Below are positions 3,302 through 11,887 of a stretch of 64,000 nucleotides of DNA, one piece after another. The stretch's first letter is position 1. The number at the start of each line of letters is the position of its first letter. The DNA is taken from NCBI GenBank assembly GCA_020073465.1, contig JAIQFC010000029.1, positions 1 through 64,000 on the forward strand, read 5' to 3'. Position numbers and translations under genes: made by a program. The notes below the pieces were generated by a model that worked only from the letters and a program-made list of their open reading frames with translations, had not been told where the DNA came from and searched no databases. This stretch comes from Terriglobia bacterium (GTDB lineage Bacteria; Acidobacteriota; Terriglobia; Terriglobales; Acidobacteriaceae).

Positions 3302-3745
3302 ATGCCACGGGCTGTAGCAAGAAGGCTGGGGATCAGATTGTCCTCGCGGAAGGAAGCAGAACTGTTCAAGTGGTTTTTGGCCTGCCTGCTCTTTGGCAAG
3401 CCGATCCAGCAGGAGATTGCCGAACGCGCCTACACCCGACTAATGTCTGCAGGTCTGCGGAACCCAGATGCAGTGCTCCGCGCGGGGTGGGACGAACTGG
3501 TCCGACTGCTTGACGAAGCGCACTATGTGCGCTACGACTTTTCCAGTGCCACCAAGCTGCTGGAGGTGTGCCAGGAACTGAAGCAGCGCTACGGCAACAT
3601 GACGAAGCTGATCGCGCAGGCAAGGACTGCCTCGGACCTCTCCGCCCGGCTGCAGGAGTTCAAGCACATCGGTCCCGTCACCGCCCGTATCTTCACACGA
3701 GAGGTTGGGCCGATCTGGTATGGCTCCCGCAGGTCTTCGCCGTAG
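3302..3745 (+). pseudogene. HhH-type DNA repair/endonuclease III-like protein, 3'-truncated
   Basis: 147 residues from an ATG at 3302 with GGAGG upstream. The sequence is all-helical and carries a helix-hairpin-helix signature (FKHIGPVTARIF, about residues 121-132), as in HhH-GPD base-excision enzymes and related proteins annotated as endonuclease III-like. It ends abruptly about ten residues after the hairpin (REVGPIWYGSRRSSP), before the rest of the catalytic domain expected in that superfamily. The break coincides with the 3' end of a truncated DUF362 gene on the opposite strand, so a deletion has probably joined two gene bodies. A genuinely short family member cannot be excluded. Confidence 0.55.
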
Positions 3746-4022
3746 GGCCAATGTTCGGCTTCACCAACACGATGCCGACGCGGGAGACGAAGCGATGGAT
3801 GCCGCCCAGGTCTTCGATGGCAGTCCACGCCAGTTGTTCGGGATTATCTCCCTGGATGACCGCCATCTCGGGCAAAGTTGGATCAACCGCCACCGCGTGA
3901 CTGCGTTTCAAATTGATTGCCAGCTCTGGTTCGGGGCGCTGGCTGTGCTCGCTCAGCCAGAATCCGAGGCCTGTCATTCCGGCAGCGACTCCTCCCAGGC
4001 GAGCAGTTTGATTAACCTTCAC
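3693..4022 (-). pseudogene. DUF362 protein, 3'-truncated
   Basis: The N-terminal part of a DUF362 protein. A hydrophobic export-like segment is followed by MAVIQGDNPEQLAWTAIED, LGGIHRF and VGIVLVKPNIG, which are diagnostic of the family. After KPNIG the reading becomes low-complexity tail and stops, whereas intact members run for roughly 250 or more further residues. The gene meets the truncated HhH gene tail to tail near 3720-3750. It lies just upstream of, and divergent from, the spermidine-synthase-like gene, and a complete Tat-targeted DUF362 gene sits at 9276-10286, so this looks like a broken paralogue from the same locus. A GTG at 4022 is a plausible start, without a good ribosome binding site. 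Confidence 0.65.
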
Positions 4023-4121
4023 GGCGGTTGAGTATGATGCCCTCGGTCGACGGCACACTGCTTTCACGTCTTTGCTTTTGCACGACAACTGAATTCTAAT
4101 CTCGTCCTAGTGGCAGCACCA

Positions 4122-6464
4122 ATGCAGTCCGTCACTATGCCGTGTGCGAAACAATCGATGTCTGCCGTAAGGGCGGTTCTGACGCTGATAGGATTCAGTG
4201 CGGTCATCGGCCAGATCGTTCTCATGCGGGAGCTCATCGTCGTCTTCAACGGCAACGAGATTTCGCTGGGAATTATGTTAGCTACCTGGCTCTTCTGGAC
4301 CGCCGCCGGCAGCGGCCTGAGCAGCCGTTTTGCGCTGGGCGGAAACAACGCTCGCCGGGCGGTCGCCGCGCTCGATTGCCTGCTCGGCGTCAGCCTGCCG
4401 CCGACGATCTGGGCATTGCGCGCCTCCAGATCTTTTTTTCAGACAGTGCCGGGCGAGCTGGTGGGTCCGGCGCCGATGCTGTTTACGTCCCTGGCATGCC
4501 TGAGCCTGTTTTGCGTTGTCTCAGGGGCGCTCTTCGTGGTTGCGACCCGGATGTATGAACGGGAGTGCGCCGTTTCTGCTCGCGTCGCTACCAGCTCGGC
4601 CTACTTGTTGGAGGCTGCTGGTTCCGCCTTCGGAGGGATCCTTGCCAGCATTGTGTTGCTGCGCTTTCTTGGGTCCTTCCAGATCGCGACCATCGTCACC
4701 CTCCTAAACCTGTGTATGGCAGCAGTCTTGTTGTTCCAGGTGAGCCGCAAGCAACTTGGGGCCGTGACTGTGGCAGCAGCGCTTTTCGCGATCCTTCTCC
4801 TTGTCTATGTTGCACCGTCGTTGGACAGGTCCGCGCAAGCGCGCCTGTGGCGGGGATTCCGCCTGGTGGGATCGCGCGACTCGGTTTACGGCAACCTGGC
4901 GGTCATTGAAACCGGTAGTGCGGAAACCGGCAATATCCGCAGCATTTATGACAACGGCGTGATCCTTGCCAACGCGCCGGACGAGAACGCCGCCGAAGAG
5001 GCGGTACACTACGCGCTGCTGGAGCACCCGGCGCCGAGGCAGCTTTTGCTGATCGGCGGCGGCGTGAACGGCAGCATCGCCCAAGCGCTGAAGCATCCCA
5101 CAGTCGAGCGGATCGACTATGTTGAGCTGGATCCCGCGCTTATCGACATGGCGCGGCAGTTCTTCCCCGTGCAGTCTGTTCCTGTTGTCTCGGATCTTCG
5201 GGTGCACATTCACTACGCGGATGGCCGGTACTATCTCAAGACGGCTGGCGACACATTCGACGTGATCATTCTTAATGTACCCGACCCACAGACTGCGCAG
5301 TTGAACCGGTTCTATACGGCCGAGTTCTTTCGTTCCGCTCGTGATCACCTCGCGTCCGGTGGACTGCTCGCCTTGCAACTGCGCTCCTCGGAGGATTACA
5401 TCAGCCCCGACCTGGCGGAATTCCTACGCTGCATTCACCACACCCTGCGGACAGTCTTCCCTTACGTTGTCGCCGTCCCCGGCGAAACGATCCACCTCTT
5501 CGCTGCTACGCGACCCGATGTTCTGACGGATAGTCCCCAAACGCTAATTGCAAGATTGCAGGAGCGGAATCTGAAGACGCAGTATGTTCGCGAATACTTC
5601 ATCCCATTCCGCATGATGCCCGATCGCATGGAGCAGGTTCGCGAGCGACTGCAGCAGCTGACCTCGACGCCCGTCAATCGCGATTTCGAGCCGATCGCCT
5701 ATTACTTCGACGTTGTGCTATGGAGCACACAGTTCAAGTTGGGCTATTCGCGCTGGTTCCGGGCCGCCGCGCACATCGCTTTCAACGGTGTCATCGATGC
5801 GGTCCTGGTTGTCTTGCTGTTTGTGGCGGTTCTTCTGGCGTTTGTGCCCGCTCGCGAGAAACGTGCTCGTTGTGCTGCAGCGTGCTGCGTGGCTGCGACC
5901 GGATTCACCCTAATGACTCTGCAGATTCTCCTGTTGCTGGCATTCCAGTCCGTTTACGGTTACGTTTACCACCAGCTCGCGATCCTCGTCGCCATGTGCA
6001 TGGCAGGCATTGCCTTCGGAAGTTGGCTGGGCATCCGCCGCATTCGATCCAGCGACAGTCCACCCTACCCCACCATTGCAGCTACCCAGGTCCTGCTCGC
6101 CCTTTCTGGTCCCGCGCTGATATTTGCTGTTGGCCTGCTGTCGAGGATTTCTGGGGTGGCAACAACGTGGTTGGCGGCGCAGTTTGTCTTCCCTGCTTTG
6201 GCTGCTCTTTGCGGGATGCTAGGGGGCTATCAATTTCCTATTGCGACGGAGATCTATCTTCATGACAGCAGCGGTCGATCAAAGCTGGGTACACTCTATG
6301 CCATCGATCTGCTGGGCGGATGCGCGGGCGCGCTTTTGTTGAGCAGTTACCTCATCCCGGTGTTTGGTTTCTGGAAAACCGCGTGGCTCAGTGCGGCGGT
6401 AAACCTGGCGCCGGTTCTCCTGGCCGCGCGGGTAAGCCTTGTGGCAAAGATATCTCGGGCGTAA
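4122..6464 (+). CDS. Multi-pass membrane protein with spermidine-synthase-like domain
   Basis: About 780 residues: several N-terminal membrane segments (about 15-240), a Rossmann methyltransferase-like domain of the spermidine synthase family (about 255-480), then more membrane segments to the C-terminus. The domain shows LLLIGGGVNGSIAQALKH, VERIDYVELDP, YADGRYYL and DVIILNVPDP. In true aminopropyltransferases the first motif is GGGDGG and the last contains a catalytic Asp in DSSDP-like sequence; both acidic positions are changed here, so polyamine synthesis is doubtful. Membrane-fused spermidine synthase homologues of unknown function are common in environmental bacteria. The start is uncertain (GTG at 4110 or ATG at 4122). 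The 3' end overlaps the MEMO1-AMMECR1 gene by 77 bases, tail to tail. Confidence 0.8.
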   Translation: MQSVTMPCAKQSMSAVRAVLTLIGFSAVIGQIVLMRELIVVFNGNEISLGIMLATWLFWTAAGSGLSSRFALGGNNARRAVAALDCLLGVSLPPTIWALRASRSFFQTVPGELVGPAPMLFTSLACLSLFCVVSGALFVVATRMYERECAVSARVATSSAYLLEAAGSAFGGILASIVLLRFLGSFQIATIVTLLNLCMAAVLLFQVSRKQLGAVTVAAALFAILLLVYVAPSLDRSAQARLWRGFRLVGSRDSVYGNLAVIETGSAETGNIRSIYDNGVILANAPDENAAEEAVHYALLEHPAPRQLLLIGGGVNGSIAQALKHPTVERIDYVELDPALIDMARQFFPVQSVPVVSDLRVHIHYADGRYYLKTAGDTFDVIILNVPDPQTAQLNRFYTAEFFRSARDHLASGGLLALQLRSSEDYISPDLAEFLRCIHHTLRTVFPYVVAVPGETIHLFAATRPDVLTDSPQTLIARLQERNLKTQYVREYFIPFRMMPDRMEQVRERLQQLTSTPVNRDFEPIAYYFDVVLWSTQFKLGYSRWFRAAAHIAFNGVIDAVLVVLLFVAVLLAFVPAREKRARCAAACCVAATGFTLMTLQILLLLAFQSVYGYVYHQLAILVAMCMAGIAFGSWLGIRRIRSSDSPPYPTIAATQVLLALSGPALIFAVGLLSRISGVATTWLAAQFVFPALAALCGMLGGYQFPIATEIYLHDSSGRSKLGTLYAIDLLGGCAGALLLSSYLIPVFGFWKTAWLSAAVNLAPVLLAARVSLVAKISRA

Positions 6465-7980
6465 GCGCTTGCGGCCTGTTCTCGCCGAATACCAACGCTG
6501 TAAACATGAAGATGTCCGTGTTCTCATCCTTCCAGCAGCCGGAGCGCATTCCCCCCTTGGCACAGGTTTCTTCCAGGAACCTCTCTCGATCCCATCGTTC
6601 CTCCACTGGCACCTGCGGAAGCAAAAGGCCCTCGTAGGCGCCGTTCTTCATTAGCAAACCGTGCTGGCCAACCTTGATCTGTCGGATGTCCAGTACGCGC
6701 CGAAGGGATGACAACACGGAGATTTCATACTCGAGTTGCGGCAACTCTGAGGCTGATACCGGCTGGAATCGGGAATCGCGCAGGGCGGCCAGCGTGGCCG
6801 TGTCCCGCACGGTCATGTATAGAGGTTTAAGCCCAGAAGTATAGCCTACGCACCCCCGCAGTTCTCCCGATTTACGCAGGGTCACGAACGCACCGTGCTC
6901 CTGATTCAACGATTCGCTTGCGCTCGCGGTTGGTTCATACGCCTTTTTCTCCCGTACCGCGTACTCCACCGACTTGCGAGCCAGAGCGAGCATTTCGTTC
7001 TTCTCGTGGCCATTCAGTGAGAATTGCGGTTCCACTGCCTTTCCGCTTTGAGTTCTCAAAAAGACGTCCGCGCTGTATCCGACCACGCGCGAGTGATCAC
7101 CTGTGGTGTCTCCTGAATTGGCGTACTTGAGCACCACGGCTTGGTTCGCTCCCATGCGCTCGGCAGCAATCATTGCGGCTACAATGGGCGCGCCGCCACA
7201 AGCTTCCCAGATCCGTGCCTCGAAGTTCCGCGACATGCTGAAGTAGTCCCACGCCTGCAGTGCATTCAGCGTTTTGTGGTCGATCTTCACAGCTTCGTCG
7301 TAGGGGTGATAATGCGACAAATCGGAACTGGCCACTATCAGCGTATCGCTGCCCTGGATTAGCTTCGCCAGAGCCACACCCAGCGCCCGGCTACTTTCAT
7401 AGCTCTGGTCTCCCATGACGACAGGCACGAGTTCGAAATCACCCAGCACCCGCTGCAACCACGGCAACTGCACCTCGAGCGCATGCTCAGCGCCCTCCCG
7501 AGTGGGAGTATGCCCCCGGCTGGAGAATTTGATGGTTGGACTCATCTGCACGAGTTGCTTTGCAAACGCCTTGTCTACCGGGACTGTCCCCAGCGGCGTC
7601 GCATAAGCGTCGCCCTCATAGACGGAAGTGAAATCAAATGCCTCGTAGTGCGACGGTGCAATCACGACCACTCGCGAAAACTTGCGCCCTTTCAGCGCCG
7701 CGTAAGTGTGGGCGGCGACGGGGCCGGAGAACTGATAACCGGCGTGAGGTGCAACCACAGCGAGGATCGGGTCATTGATCGGCGGCGGAGACGCATGCGC
7801 CAACATGTCATCCATCATCGCCGAAAGTGTTTTTGGGTCGGCCGGATAGAAGCCTCCGGCGACAGCGGCTTGTCTCACGTTCTGCGGATCGGCAGCACGG
7901 ACGTGCGGCAGTGCCGCAATCGCCAAGATCGCGATGAGTAGAACCGCCAGCCAATATCTTTTGGAGCGCTTGATATTCAT
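6388..7980 (-). CDS. AmmeMemoRadiSam proteins B and A fused (MEMO1 + AMMECR1)
   Basis: 530 residues from the ATG at 7980, preceded by GAGGAGG. An N-terminal signal or anchor (about 8-29, ending HVRAA) is followed by a MEMO1 domain (about 34-310) with its conserved metal-ligand-type residues: His79 in PHAGY, His111 in PSHYE and Cys261 in EACGGAP. An AMMECR1 domain (about 325-500) carries LRGCVGY. In most genomes these are two genes, or a fusion without a signal. The predicted export matches the Tat signals on the next two genes of the operon. The last 25 or so residues are Pro-rich and read antisense to the neighbouring gene, so the natural end may have shifted. The biochemical role of the system is not established to my knowledge. 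Confidence 0.85.
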   Translation of the reverse strand: MNIKRSKRYWLAVLLIAILAIAALPHVRAADPQNVRQAAVAGGFYPADPKTLSAMMDDMLAHASPPPINDPILAVVAPHAGYQFSGPVAAHTYAALKGRKFSRVVVIAPSHYEAFDFTSVYEGDAYATPLGTVPVDKAFAKQLVQMSPTIKFSSRGHTPTREGAEHALEVQLPWLQRVLGDFELVPVVMGDQSYESSRALGVALAKLIQGSDTLIVASSDLSHYHPYDEAVKIDHKTLNALQAWDYFSMSRNFEARIWEACGGAPIVAAMIAAERMGANQAVVLKYANSGDTTGDHSRVVGYSADVFLRTQSGKAVEPQFSLNGHEKNEMLALARKSVEYAVREKKAYEPTASASESLNQEHGAFVTLRKSGELRGCVGYTSGLKPLYMTVRDTATLAALRDSRFQPVSASELPQLEYEISVLSSLRRVLDIRQIKVGQHGLLMKNGAYEGLLLPQVPVEERWDRERFLEETCAKGGMRSGCWKDENTDIFMFTALVFGENRPQALTPEISLPQGLPARPGEPAPGLPPH

Positions 7981-8003
7981 ATCCGAAACCTCCTCTCGCG
8001 CTC

Positions 8004-9251
8004 TCATGCGTGCCAGACACCAGGGACCGGCTCGTGGCAGAATGGGCAACTGCCCTTGCGGATTAGCATCCGACTCGCCGTGAACCCTACTCGTTCCACC
8101 AACATGCGGTGGCACTTCGGGCAGTAGGTATTTTGCGCAGGATGTCCCGGCACATTGCCGATGTATACGTAGTGCAAACCCTCGGCGTCGGCAATCGCCT
8201 TGGCACGCTCCAGAGTGGGCACCGGCGTTATGGGCAGGTTCTTCAACAGGTATTCCGGATGAAATTGCGTGAAATGTACAGGCACATCCACGCCCAGGTT
8301 GGTCTTGATCCAGCGCGCCAGGCCGCCGAATTCGGCATCACTGTCATTCAGCGTCGGCACCACGAGGTACACGATCTCGGTCCACTTATTCATCTTCCGC
8401 AATGTGACCAGCGCGTCCAACACCGGCTTCAACTCACCAACGACTACATCCTTATAGTAGGACTCCGTAAACGCTTTCAGATCGATCTTAACCGCGTCCA
8501 TCTTTCCGTACGCTGTCTTCAGCGCCTCATCTTGCATATAGCCATTCGACACGACCACGCTGTGGATGCCGGCTTCGTGCCCGGCATCGGCTGCATCCAT
8601 TAGGTACTCGCTGAAGACCACCGGCTCGCTGTAGGTGTAGGCAATGGTCGGACAGTCGTGCTGTCTGGCCAGCGCGGCAACCATTTTCGGGGGCGCGTAG
8701 TCGGCAGGAACCTGCTCCGGACGTGCCTGGGAGATGTCCCAGTTCTGGCAGAATTTGCAGTTGACATTACAGCCAGCCGTGGCTAACGAGAAAGCGAGCG
8801 TCCCCGGCAGGTAGTGGAACAGGGGCTTCTTCTCGATGGGATCAATGTGCGCAGCGCACACCCGCGAGTGGACCAGCGTGTAGTAGGTTCCCCCGCGATT
8901 CTCCCGCACGCCACAATAGCCGCGTTCCCGATCTCCCACCGTGCATTCGCGCGGACACAGCTTGCACTTGATCTTCTTATTTTGGAGTTTCTGGTAGAAC
9001 TTTGCTTCGACGGTGAATCGCGAATCATCCTGCTTCTGCGGACCAGCCCACGGGGGCATCGCGACGAGGGGTTGGGCAAATTCGCAGACGCCTAGAGCTG
9101 CTCCTGACGCCAGGGCGCACTTCAAGAACGAACGGCGATCGAGCGGGCACGTGAAGGAGCTTCGCTCACGGCGGACAGCAGGACTCTCGCTTTCACCTTT
9201 GCCGTCGGCCGGGACCTTCACGCCTTCTTGCGTATCGAGTTCGCGCGCCAT
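8004..9251 (-). CDS. amrS: AmmeMemoRadiSam system radical SAM enzyme with Tat-like signal
   Basis: 415 residues, starting at the ATG at 9251 with GAGGG upstream. The radical SAM motif CNVNCKFC is at about residue 160, followed by QNWDIS. An N-terminal CKLCPREC cluster (about residue 97) and a C-terminal zinc-ribbon-like pair of CxxC motifs (CPKC, CPFC) complete the usual AmrS layout. Near the N-terminus is DRRSFLKCALASGAALG, a twin-arginine-type signal behind a hydrophilic leader of about 38 residues. Export of a folded Fe-S radical SAM enzyme would be unusual, because these enzymes normally take electrons from cytoplasmic flavodoxin. The gene lies 23 bases upstream of the MEMO1-AMMECR1 fusion and 24 bases downstream of the DUF362 gene, which implies one operon. 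Confidence 0.87.
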   Translation of the reverse strand: MARELDTQEGVKVPADGKGESESPAVRRERSSFTCPLDRRSFLKCALASGAALGVCEFAQPLVAMPPWAGPQKQDDSRFTVEAKFYQKLQNKKIKCKLCPRECTVGDRERGYCGVRENRGGTYYTLVHSRVCAAHIDPIEKKPLFHYLPGTLAFSLATAGCNVNCKFCQNWDISQARPEQVPADYAPPKMVAALARQHDCPTIAYTYSEPVVFSEYLMDAADAGHEAGIHSVVVSNGYMQDEALKTAYGKMDAVKIDLKAFTESYYKDVVVGELKPVLDALVTLRKMNKWTEIVYLVVPTLNDSDAEFGGLARWIKTNLGVDVPVHFTQFHPEYLLKNLPITPVPTLERAKAIADAEGLHYVYIGNVPGHPAQNTYCPKCHRMLVERVGFTASRMLIRKGSCPFCHEPVPGVWHA

Positions 9252-9275
9252 GTTGAACCCTCAATCCCGCACCGC

Positions 9276-10286
9276 TTACACCTCGACAACCGCGATTCTC
9301 CTGGGATCATTGGTGCCCAGTCGATGCTGTGCATCGGCCGCGGTCGCAATGTACAGTGGTGCTCTGCCATCGCCTTCCAGCGTCTTCAATCCTTTCTCAG
9401 CTCGCTTGCGCTCGATGATTTGCCAGCCGGTGTAGTCGAGCGCGACGGGATCTTGCGAAACGATCAGGGCATTGTTCTTCCAACTGTATTCCGGCTTGTA
9501 TCCCGGTCCGCCTTCGTACGATGCCGTCGTCGCATCGCAGATGGTCAAGCGCATCCTTGTTCTGATTTCCGGCAGCATGTTCAAGTCTGCGATGTACGGA
9601 TTACAGCCGTTGGGGTGGTACTTGTTCGGGTTATGAATGACACCATACATATTTTTCAGGGCGATGGTTACGCCGGCGCCGTCATGGTCTTTCAGCACAG
9701 GCACATTGATCAGGGCGTTGCAGCGTTGCGTCAGAATCTTCGACAACCGGCTGCCAACACTGCCATGAGTGACCGGCTCTTGTTCGTAATCAAGTCGATC
9801 GGTGCCGAAGCATTGCACACGGTTTCCGCCCGTCGACACATGGAATCCAGCATGTTCCAGTTCGTCGCTGTCGCGGTCCCAGACCACGATATCGTTCGGC
9901 TTGATTCGGGCCTCCTGCAACCGCTCGCAAATCGCCTCGACAAGCTGCAGGTTGCTGGAGAGTCCACGGCCTCCGAGTGCGTTTACCTTCAGGCCCACAA
10001 CCTCGCCCGGACGGACCAGTTTCTTCCATGGCTCGATCGGATTGTCGCAGTTGAAGAGGGTTTGCATCGCACGATCCAGTAGGTTCAGGATCCGCTGGGA
10101 ATCCACCGTGGTTCCGGCGCCCCGCAGCATTGCGTCGCGCGCGGTCACAACCCTGGATTTCGCCAGCGCCGGTCCTTGTTCTGCTACTGCGAGCAGCTCC
10201 ATCCTGCCGCTTGCGCGCAGAACCGCAGCGCCCGTGAGACACCTCTTCAGAAAATCCCGCCGACTCGTGTCACCCCTTTGGCGCAT
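9276..10286 (-). CDS. DUF362 protein with Tat signal
   Basis: 336 residues from the ATG at 10286, with GGGGAG five bases upstream. A twin-arginine signal (SRRDFLKRCLTGAAVL, about residues 8-23) leads into a complete DUF362 domain: EVVGLKVNALGG, NDIVVWDRD, INVPVLKDHDGAGVTIALKN and DPVALDYTGW. DUF362 proteins are often fused to or encoded near Fe-S proteins, and no activity is assigned. Position in the operon, directly before the radical SAM gene, suggests they work together in the envelope. A truncated paralogue lies at 3693-4022. Confidence 0.85.
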   Translation of the reverse strand: MRQRGDTSRRDFLKRCLTGAAVLRASGRMELLAVAEQGPALAKSRVVTARDAMLRGAGTTVDSQRILNLLDRAMQTLFNCDNPIEPWKKLVRPGEVVGLKVNALGGRGLSSNLQLVEAICERLQEARIKPNDIVVWDRDSDELEHAGFHVSTGGNRVQCFGTDRLDYEQEPVTHGSVGSRLSKILTQRCNALINVPVLKDHDGAGVTIALKNMYGVIHNPNKYHPNGCNPYIADLNMLPEIRTRMRLTICDATTASYEGGPGYKPEYSWKNNALIVSQDPVALDYTGWQIIERKRAEKGLKTLEGDGRAPLYIATAADAQHRLGTNDPRRIAVVEV

Positions 10287-10391
10287 GGTCACTCCCCGTC
10301 AGAAACAGGCCTTGGGCTGACTGCCTCACGTTACGCTACTGCAATCCATGCGATTCTTCAGTGACGAGCAACACACACTCCGTGCTGCCGT

Positions 10392-10904
10392 TCATCTCGC
10401 GAGCCGCTGCTCGATGACCTGTCCGAGCTGCAAAAGTGCATGCTGCGTTCGCCCGGATTCTTGATAGGCCACGATTCGCACCAGATAGGATCCCTTGTGG
10501 AAAACTAGGCTCTGGCCGTGCAGGCGCGCACCGTCTCCCACTTGAACGAATTGCGCATCACCCGCCCGTTCCGACTCGAAAACATTCTTGGCTCCGTCTG
10601 CGCTTGCCATGGTGTAAATGTCCACGACCGCTTCAAACTTGTTCTCGAAGTTGTAGTCGGCAGTGGACACTCTCCGTACCCCCGCTTTCAAGTACCTCTC
10701 CGCTTCCCCGTCGATGTACTTCCATAGGTCAGCAGCTTCAAAGGTACGAGCATCGGAAGTCTTCATCCACCCTGCGACCTCGTCGGAGGCGGGGAATGCC
10801 GTGACCTTGGTCTGCGGTTCTCGATTGCAACCAGCATCTCCGAAGACTACTGTACAGAAGGCGATCAACAGCACGCCCCGGAACGCCGCGCCCGTCCTGG
10901 TCAC
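10392..10904 (-). CDS. DUF6599-type lipoprotein
   Basis: 170 residues if translation starts at the GTG at 10904, which has GGAGAG six bases upstream; a TTG 36 bases further out is less likely. The N-terminus is a lipoprotein-like signal ending in GDAGC, with Asp at -3 making the lipobox atypical. The mature part carries ADLWKYIDGEAERYLKAGV, the hallmark of DUF6599, a family I know mainly from Acidobacteria and related phyla. First gene of the minus-strand operon with DUF362, AmrS and the MEMO1-AMMECR1 fusion, 105 bases before the DUF362 start. Function unknown; likely anchored in a membrane facing the periplasm. Confidence 0.75.
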   Translation of the reverse strand: MTRTGAAFRGVLLIAFCTVVFGDAGCNREPQTKVTAFPASDEVAGWMKTSDARTFEAADLWKYIDGEAERYLKAGVRRVSTADYNFENKFEAVVDIYTMASADGAKNVFESERAGDAQFVQVGDGARLHGQSLVFHKGSYLVRIVAYQESGRTQHALLQLGQVIEQRLAR

Positions 10905-11887
10905 TTTGTGCTCTCCGTGCTCCGATTTGTTTGAACTCAATCTTCTGCCAAGCTGTCATCCCATTGCCGTGAGCCGGATCACGTGAGTCGGCCAACCGAA
11001 AGCCAACGATTTCTGCTGAAGGAATCCGGGGGTGGTTTTGAGTTGGTTCCGCAGACACCTATCCCGCATTGGTTCTTGTCAACCGGCGGATTTGACGGCG
11101 ATCACCGCGCCCTGGTGCGATGGGCAGGAGCCTCCGGACTCGCTCTCCAGATTATTGATGTAGTGAAACTGGCTTGAGAATGTGGATGGTGGCTGATGTC
11201 ATCGTGCTTGATGGGACGCCATTGATGACCACAAAACGCGATAGTTCTTTCGCCCCAGCGAGCAATGATCTGCTCGCCACGAGGGGGCGCCGATGGCCAC
11301 TTCCTATGTTCCGCAGCGTGCCAAGCTAGCGGACGACAAGAACATCCAAGGAACGTTCAACGCGCCCCTTACTGAACGGCAGAGGTGGGCTTAGTGTCCA
11401 TTTAGTGTCCGGTCTATGGGGGTCGAGCGAGACGCTATGGAATTGGCGAGACTATAGAGACACCGGCTATCCTATAGTCCTCATGGGACTTGCCGGTTAA
11501 CCCCATTGGAACAATGACTTGCGCAAAACTGCCGGGTAGAATTCGGCTTACAGGCCCGGCTGCCTAAATCTTTAATTAGCAATAACTTACAACACTGTTT
11601 TCCGCTTAGCGTCCTGTAAACGAAAAGAAATCTCGGTCCCGAGGACGATGCGTTCAATGCGGGCACCCACAACGAGCTGTTTCAAGTCTGCTACGCAAAT
11701 TTCGCACGGGTAAGCGACTCACAAGAAGCTCCTCTCTTCTACAACTCTCTGGCTGCTCTAAGGACTCGCGGCGCAGTGTCCAACTGCATATGCTAGCCGC
11801 TCTCGCGTGTTGAGGATGTGATTACAGCTACAGTTAGGACCGACCCCGCCCGCCGGAGTGGTTCAGGGGAAACCTAAACGGATCAGT
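10905..11887. other. Gene-free stretch with tandem 11-bp repeat
   Basis: Nearly 1 kb without a convincing gene on either strand. Short frames exist (10983-11177 plus, 11481-11672 minus) but show no domain and no good ribosome binding sites. At 11391-11410 the 9-mer TTAGTGTCC occurs twice with an 11-bp period. The stretch begins a region rich in broken genes. Confidence 0.5.
11391..11410 (+). repeat. 11-bp-period direct repeat TTAGTGTCC x2
   Basis: TTAGTGTCC at 11391-11399 and again at 11402-11410. A similar pair with the same 11-bp period, in opposite orientation, lies at 14514-14534. Such spaced repeats can be recombinase binding sites, but no integrase gene is present in the window. Confidence 0.45.

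Follow-up and report, generated by a model that had tools for sequence, protein, structure and literature searches.

In this study, we found that a 64,000-nucleotide stretch of a Terriglobia bacterium genome (contig JAIQFC010000029.1; hereafter the window) carries an AmmeMemoRadiSam gene set whose four products all have export-type starts. The set comprises the radical S-adenosylmethionine (SAM) enzyme AmrS, a MEMO-AMMECR1 fusion, a DUF362 protein (DUF362a) and a lipoprotein-like DUF6599 protein, and it lies beside the gene of a membrane protein with 14 transmembrane (TM) helices and a spermidine-synthase-like (SpdS-like) domain. As a whole, these features are best explained by an AmmeMemoRadiSam machine that faces the envelope and acts on a substrate in the periplasm or membrane, a reading that we consider probable. 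Within it, location outside the cytoplasm is predicted with high confidence, and SAM-dependent catalysis at that location has about an even chance of being correct. The features are as follows.

3693..4088, minus strand: 5' remnant of a second DUF362 gene (DUF362b), matching only model positions 26-115 of 339 (90.5 bits with a hidden Markov model (HMM) made from the DUF362b of related loci)
4110..6464, plus strand: 14-TM protein with a spermidine-synthase-like domain (about residues 250-540, predicted extracytoplasmic); Spermine_synth 93.2 bits
6388..7980, minus strand: MEMO-AMMECR1 fusion with a putative N-terminal Sec-type signal; TIGR04336 274.9 bits, TIGR04335 174.4 bits
8004..9251, minus strand: AmrS radical SAM enzyme, twin-arginine DRRSFLK, 11 conserved cysteines all present; TIGR04337 384.5 bits
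9276..10292, minus strand: DUF362a, twin-arginine SRRDFLK, LarA-like fold, without an iron-sulfur (Fe-S) motif; Pfam DUF362 76.9 bits
10392..10940, minus strand: DUF6599 lipoprotein-like protein, with a TTG start at 10940 or a GTG start at 10904 (the choice of the initial annotation); Pfam DUF6599 79.3 bits

The initial annotation had described the genes at 6388-10904 as DUF6599, DUF362, AmrS and MEMO1-AMMECR1. Coordinates and families were confirmed by Pfam matches above cut-off (Memo 216.8, AMMECR1 175.9, Radical_SAM 61.1, DUF362 76.9 and DUF6599 79.3 bits) and by NCBIfam (TIGR04336 274.9 bits against a cut-off of 26, TIGR04335 174.4 against 99, TIGR04337 384.5 against 220). The genes are transcribed in the order DUF6599, DUF362a, AmrS, MEMO-AMMECR1, with gaps of 99, 24 and 23 bases. 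The same annotation also proposed export features on all four proteins, and our reading of the sequences agrees. AmrS has DRRSFLK followed by a hydrophobic stretch and DUF362a has SRRDFLK; MEMO-AMMECR1 appears to begin with a Sec-type signal ending in VRA-A, and DUF6599 with a hydrophobic stretch followed by a lipobox-like DAGC. DUF362b likewise has a twin-arginine segment, and the hydrophobic stretch of several AmrS relatives seems to contain LAAC or LAGC in the fashion of Tat lipoproteins. In 12 of 12 aligned AmrS sequences, window included, R39, R40 and F42 are invariant, although the length preceding them differs greatly; the two arginines and the phenylalanine of the DUF362a segment are invariant in 13 of 13, again with the window counted.

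AmrS was then compared across 250 genomes of the same class. Among the matches listed, the bit scores formed three main groups, at about 430-490 (with a pair at 625-631), at 333-392, and at or below 307. The window AmrS belongs to the middle group, which is present in 24 genomes after a partial match in G241 was dropped before counting. We fetched the loci of the other 23 members of this group, 13 of the upper group and 4 of the lower group, one of which is the second AmrS of the window genome on contig C45. Signals were called with the second version of a rule-based classifier, the first having barred charged residues in the hydrophobic stretch and missed visible twin-arginine translocation (Tat) signals. 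Tat was called in the window and in 23/23 fetched loci of its group, and a signal in 0/17 loci of the other two groups. A twin arginine by chance was ruled out, given its invariance in 12/12 AmrS and 13/13 DUF362a and the 23/23 versus 0/17 loci. AmrS homologues without the segment had been named beforehand as an outcome that would speak against export; the segment is kept in all 23 window-group loci, and the 17 signal-less AmrS, including that on C45, fall in other branches. The MEMO-AMMECR1 starts of the class loci were Sec-type in 21/22 and Tat-like in 1/22 under the second rule.

Of the partners found, the 14-TM SpdS-like protein is the most constant. In an HMM scan of the 23 window-type loci, 22 had MEMO-AMMECR1, 19 the 14-TM gene and 17 DUF362. 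DUF362 is thus missing from six loci, and DUF6599 is missing from most. The four loci without the 14-TM gene are three that break at a contig end (L035, L037, L040) and that of G010, where the gene is on another contig. Gene order varies from convergent to MEMO, 14-TM and AmrS on one strand (L054-L056), so that the linkage is not one frozen arrangement. Beside signal-less AmrS, neither a MEMO-AMMECR1 nor a 14-TM gene was found in the examined stretch of any of the 17 class loci. At the genome level, we examined 38 chosen genomes, 13 of the 24 with window-type AmrS and 25 others, taking more than 300 bits as a close 14-TM match. Such a match was present in 13/13 genomes with window-type AmrS versus 0/25 without, one of which (G064) has a partial match of 74.6 bits. 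In genus g1, one genome has both AmrS and the 14-TM gene and two have neither; in genus g2, two have both and three neither. The clusters listed by frame clustering of the window-type loci were AmrS, MEMO-AMMECR1, DUF362, the SpdS-like protein, overlapping frames and one unrelated three-locus cluster. Since no further shared cluster was among them, other linked genes were rejected as core parts.

The AlphaFold2 model of the 14-TM protein (mean predicted local distance difference test, pLDDT, 92.0) shows seven helices, a soluble domain and then six helices. By its length, the last helix (728-783) could cross the membrane twice, and splitting it at P750/G753 gives the count of 14; the side of the soluble domain is unaffected by this split. 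With the N-terminal loop and the soluble domain excluded, loops called inside hold 18.0 lysine and arginine residues per 99.7 residues versus 1.7 per 36.7 in loops called outside, and the bias has the same direction in 56/56 sequences. The spermidine-synthase-like domain is therefore predicted to lie outside. This topology bears on an alternative in which the N-terminal segments are anchors, the catalytic domains stay in the cytoplasm and an ordinary AmmeMemoRadiSam set is tethered to the inner membrane. The Tat-like and Sec-like starts are indeed predictions, and Pfam TAT_signal stays below its cut-off, as this alternative would allow. However, a positively charged start with one hydrophobic helix normally places the following part outside, the SpdS-like domain follows seven helices with a strong positive-inside bias, and the linked redox partners described below are of a periplasm-facing kind. 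We thus regard the tethered arrangement as very improbable. Location outside the cytoplasm, for which the initial annotation had argued, is favored as a prediction by the Sec-type MEMO-AMMECR1 starts, the uniform topology, a NapHG-like conduit, and DsbD_2 proteins near other members of the clade.

Export-signalled AmrS occurs in many phyla. A profile search of named genomes gave at least 590 candidates, of which the best 80 were taken as named loci; many of these stretches end at contig ends. The nearest relative among them is that of Candidatus Sulfotelmatobacter (L075; 88% over AmrS), and others come from Latescibacterota, Zixiibacteriota, Aminicenantes, KSB1, WOR-3, Poribacteria, Calditrichaeota, Omnitrophota, Elusimicrobia, Chloroflexi, Bacteroidales, Deltaproteobacteria and one Woesearchaeota bin (L147). 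Under the second rule, 57 of the 80 have an export-type start (41 Tat and 16 Sec/TM) and 23 have none called. The 14-TM gene was found in 35/57 export-type versus 4/23 other loci (p 4e-4), and a MEMO-AMMECR1 match in the examined stretch in 30/57 versus 6/23. The four loci that have the 14-TM gene and no called start are two cut by a contig end (L079, L123), one with a KR signal (L133) and one that is unclear (L134).

The relatedness of these enzymes was examined in a tree of 99 AmrS cores with the N-terminus excluded, obtained by a quick search and rooted at the midpoint. It includes 24 of the 40 class loci. L082 and L098 (the same records as L048 and L044) and L079, L084, L123 and L134 (start missing or unclear) were omitted by hand, and L100, L111 and L133 were called exported by eye. 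One group of 75 rows holds 73/73 export-labelled rows together with L149 and L150 (Shimodaira-Hasegawa-like approximate likelihood ratio test 94), and the export label changes 3 times on the tree versus about 23 times in shuffles. On these sequences, export of AmrS looks like one old event. The AmrS of the Woesearchaeota bin, which has a TRKEF start, sits inside the export group.

We next considered whether the exported enzymes retain their catalytic residues. The radical SAM motif CxxxCxxC (C161, C165, C168) is invariant in 81 AmrS rows, namely the window and the 80 named loci, signal-less ones included. Cysteines 96, 99, 103, 113, 161, 165, 168, 377 and 380 are present in 100% and cysteines 402 and 405 in 99% of these rows, and the 11 are invariant both in 12 exported and in 16 signal-less aligned AmrS. 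In 53 MEMO-AMMECR1 fusions, H79, H111, C261 and R375-G376-C377-x-G379 are invariant. The initial annotation's view that the catalytic-type residues (CxxxCxxC; His79/His111/Cys261; LRGCVG) are intact therefore extends across both families, and no signs of inactivation were seen among the conserved residues of the aligned exported AmrS. By sequence, the only solved relative of AmrS found is pyruvate formate-lyase activating enzyme (3c8f, E 1.2e-4, residues 154-317; 8fo0, E 7.3e-4); unlike it, AmrS has four additional conserved cysteines at the N-terminus, four at the C-terminus, and an export signal.

Intact residues are also compatible with use of SAM inside the cell. In such a scheme, AmrS would act in the cytoplasm on itself, on DUF362 or on another folded Tat partner and would then be exported, either as a spent enzyme or to serve outside, without radical chemistry, as a metal or Fe-S protein. 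The Tat pathway exports folded, cofactor-loaded proteins, SAM is cytoplasmic, and DUF362a and DUF362b also have twin arginines, which makes them possible partners inside the cell. Against this stand the Sec-type starts of MEMO-AMMECR1 (21/22 class loci), the Sec-like or TM start of AmrS itself in 16/80 named loci, and the predicted outside position of the SpdS-like domain in the linked 14-TM protein. We consider this scheme distinctly unlikely, less so than tethering.

The function of the 14-TM protein was approached by comparison with spermidine synthases. It matches MFS_SpdSyn (NF037959) with 61.1 bits against a cut-off of 40, and the fold of its soluble domain matches SpeE structures (Foldseek E 4e-13 to 1uir). 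In spermidine synthase, according to the part of PMC10349129 available to us, the D/E of the GxG(D/E)G motif binds decarboxylated SAM. This acid is Val319 in the window protein; D/E occurs there in 2/56 sequences and a gap in 3. The segment that we take to hold the catalytic Asp of spermidine synthase (DxxDP) reads NVPDP, with Asn389 in place of the Asp, which is kept in 10/56 sequences. For both replacements, we rejected the identity of the 14-TM protein as a spermidine synthase. The available text of PMC10349129 also describes NHMT, an N-terminal histidine methyltransferase, as a fungal seven-TM protein that is annotated as spermidine synthase, lacks that acid, resides in the endoplasmic reticulum (ER) and methylates secreted enzymes; SAM supply in the ER may limit it, and, apart from one unclassified fungus, its 7TM sequence is reported from filamentous fungi alone. 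As far as that text goes, NHMT and the window protein share seven TM helices followed by a soluble SpdS-like domain, a replaced acid (Ile in NHMT, Val319 here) and an exocytoplasmic position of the domain, through the secretory pathway in NHMT and by predicted topology in the window protein. The window protein differs in having a second membrane block after the domain. NHMT is a working parallel, and kinship is not implied. The 14-TM protein has lost the acid that decarboxylated SAM requires, and a role as a partner of the methyltransferase or SAM-handling type is more likely than one as a spermidine synthase.

The gene directly upstream of AmrS is DUF362a in the window, where 24 bases separate the two, as well as in 16/23 class loci and in several phyla. 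The DUF362a model (pLDDT 72.5, with several stretches below 50 and a poor region at 205-239) is closest to lactate/malate racemases (Foldseek E 9.9e-4). In a structure comparison, nine rows had Z of 11.3-13.3, a root-mean-square deviation of 3.6-4.2 and 196-209 residues, followed by a row at 5.2; eight of the nine are lactate/malate racemases or LarA-like and one (4nar) is without a functional name. The matched region is the N-terminal and middle part of LarA, with 10-15% identity over the aligned part. The H203/K213 pair is invariant in the 13 aligned DUF362a and presumably has counterparts in LarA. In the available text of PMC11770544, DUF362 and LarA belong to one Pfam clan, CL0471. DUF362a thus resembles LarA in its modelled fold, and the window genome has LarC; it differs in its Tat-type signal and low identity. 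The LarC gene, for nickel-pincer cofactor maturation, is at C2:25184-25675.

No ferredoxin-type CxxCxxC was found in DUF362a; none of its cysteines is invariant in the 13 sequences, and the near-invariant C191 and C252 lie far apart. The pattern CxxCxxCxxxC is absent from every frame of the window. DUF362a was rejected as an Fe-S electron carrier because no such motif is conserved in the 13 sequences and the model has a LarA-type fold. The earlier idea that DUF362 perhaps handles electrons is thereby weakened, though DUF362a is associated with a NapHG-like gene. Some DUF362 proteins bear nested Fe-S motifs, according to the part of PMC7955657 available to us. Among our loci, DUF362 proteins with nested 4Fe-4S motifs occur near exported AmrS in WOR-3 and Elusimicrobia, identified through Pfam in L107 and L111 and through similarity and motif in L112.

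A better electron candidate than DUF362a is encoded at a second locus of the window genome, on contig C54, where a NapH-NapG-like fusion stands in a row with a second DUF6599, which adjoins it, and an intact DUF362b. The first part of the fusion matches NapH (NF007013, 86.2 bits against a cut-off of 234) and the second NapG (NF007012, 98.3 against 269), with an internal RRKVLTG between them. With scores far below the curated cut-offs, it is, by sequence, a relative of NapH/NapG and not an equivalog, and it differs from the NapGH quinol dehydrogenase in being one fused chain beside DUF6599 and DUF362b. Proteins of the NapGH and DsbD types carry reducing power across the membrane. NapHG-like membrane proteins occur near DUF6599 and DUF362 in several loci and next to window-type AmrS in several. 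At more than 200 bits, the gene is present in 23/250 class genomes, window-type AmrS in 24 and both in 19 by hand count (Fisher 2e-20, a value that ignores the kinship of the genomes). NapHG-like, DUF6599, DUF362a-like and DUF362b genes also form a row of their own in L161, L162, L163, L166 and L167, the first three in genomes without window-type AmrS; this row may constitute an independent periplasmic redox module.

Another candidate was found in other phyla. For comparison of neighbors, 63 export-type named loci were used (57 by rule, with L079, L100, L111, L123, L133 and L134 added by hand), and the class loci of the window group were excluded. A DsbD_2 protein lies near AmrS in 8/63 of them versus 0/34 signal-less loci (L104, L113, L115, L120, L143, L144, L146 and L153; seven are named Omnitrophota), and Pfam confirms six of the eight. 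The other clusters exclusive to export-type loci and present in at least five are two from Omnitrophota (5 loci each: L104, L113, L114, L115 and L144); they lie near AmrS and look to us like RsmE and MtaB-type genes.

The separate NapHG row raises the possibility of two independent systems that share only an operon, one of AmrS, MEMO-AMMECR1 and the 14-TM protein and the other a redox module of DUF6599, DUF362 and NapHG. The second module exists without window-type AmrS in G206, G103 and G209, and the first without DUF362a in loci of G047, G078, G147, G017, G025 and G008. Nevertheless, the NapHG gene is present in 19/24 genomes with window-type AmrS, and the position of DUF362a directly upstream of AmrS recurs in 16/23 class loci and several phyla. 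We therefore judge independence of the two modules to be somewhat unlikely, though the most credible of the three alternatives.

The preferred reading, an envelope-facing machine, would operate as follows. AmrS would fold with its Fe-S cluster in the cytoplasm, be exported by Tat and remain at the inner membrane on its outer side. MEMO-AMMECR1 probably crosses unfolded via Sec, so that it could meet folded AmrS only outside. The exit route for electrons would be the C54 NapH-NapG-like fusion, with a DsbD-like channel in its place in other phyla. AmrS would then cleave SAM outside, and the radical, together with MEMO-AMMECR1, would modify a periplasmic or membrane-bound substrate, for which a membrane lipid, quinone or lipoprotein is our guess. 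The 14-TM protein would serve as a partner of the methyltransferase or SAM-handling type, in the manner of NHMT in the fungal ER, with DUF362a/b (LarA fold) and DUF6599 as accessory proteins. That the 14-TM protein in particular supplies SAM is an unlikely element of this scheme. A broader proposal, that of a radical SAM lineage with extracytoplasmic radical chemistry in many phyla, fed by NapHG- or DsbD-like electrons and by SAM at the outer face, perhaps via the 14-TM protein, amounts to an extracytoplasmic SAM economy; we offer it tentatively, at less than even likelihood.

Several observations weigh against this reading. We know of neither a periplasmic SAM pool nor a SAM importer, and NapGH-type quinol potentials would be high for a radical SAM cluster. 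Some distant 14-TM members have a degraded SpdS-like motif, and binding of SAM by the domain need not be universal. Pfam TAT_signal gives 21.2 bits for the window AmrS, just below the cut-off of 22.7, and finds 2 of the 12 aligned AmrS, window included, at E 0.1. Under the first, stricter rule, 53/80 named loci are export-like and the 14-TM gene is found in 30/53 versus 9/27 (p = 0.06). L149 and L150, called signal-less, sit within the export group of the tree. Signal and partner are largely of single origin, and their association does not represent many independent events; as export looks like one old event, the linkage counts of the two are not independent. On supported branches, the independent-pairs test found 0-1 usable pairs and hence had no power. 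The NapHG-like gene is missing from 5/24 genomes with window-type AmrS, and its module occurs without that enzyme in the three genomes named above (a fourth, G188, has fragments only), so that it is not bound to AmrS.

Other features of the window genome, which is 5.9 Mb in size and 99.99% complete, complement this picture. It has a TatC gene, a second, signal-less AmrS on C45 that begins MEVAVATLRT, and a second MEMO on C66 without AMMECR1 and with a likely start that is signal-less. The four-gene inventory of the initial annotation, right in all its members, overlooked the 14-TM gene at 4110-6464, the truncated DUF362b at 3693-4088 and the second locus on C54. The 14-TM gene, whose product has 784 residues, is convergent with MEMO-AMMECR1, tail-to-tail with a 77-base overlap, and the DUF362b remnant is divergent from it. 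A Pfam scan of the remnant alone gave no match. As DUF362b is broken here and intact on C54 (L156 10419-11489), the set seems to be split or duplicated in this genome. A further radical SAM gene, at 882-2051 on the minus strand of the window (Radical_SAM 46.0 bits; weak NrdG2 and AmrS matches), is outside the set.

Literature searches on exported radical SAM enzymes, and on AMMECR1 and MEMO with radical SAM, found no description of such a system among the papers listed, and the five papers listed that name AmmeMemoRadiSam mention it once each; the available part of PMC10924467, retrieved in the former, deals with other proteins. A search on DUF6599 found nothing. The window set is a variant of the known AmmeMemoRadiSam system, with the AmrS, MEMO and AMMECR1 families all over cut-off and their motifs intact. 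It differs in the export-type starts on all four proteins, in the fusion of MEMO with AMMECR1 and in its linkage to the 14-TM SpdS-like protein, DUF362 and DUF6599, and it would be categorically new only if chemistry outside were shown.

The usual view places radical SAM enzymes in the cytoplasm, where SAM and strong reductants are found. An export-signalled lineage that spans many phyla, keeps its catalytic cysteines and has a constant membrane partner would imply either SAM chemistry outside the cytoplasm or a second role for these enzymes. Human homologues of MEMO and AMMECR1 are linked to disease, and to our knowledge there is no agreed reaction for them. The exported clade defines a minimal trio of AmrS, MEMO-AMMECR1 and the 14-TM SpdS-like protein, together with candidate redox partners, and may thereby offer a handle on MEMO and AMMECR1.

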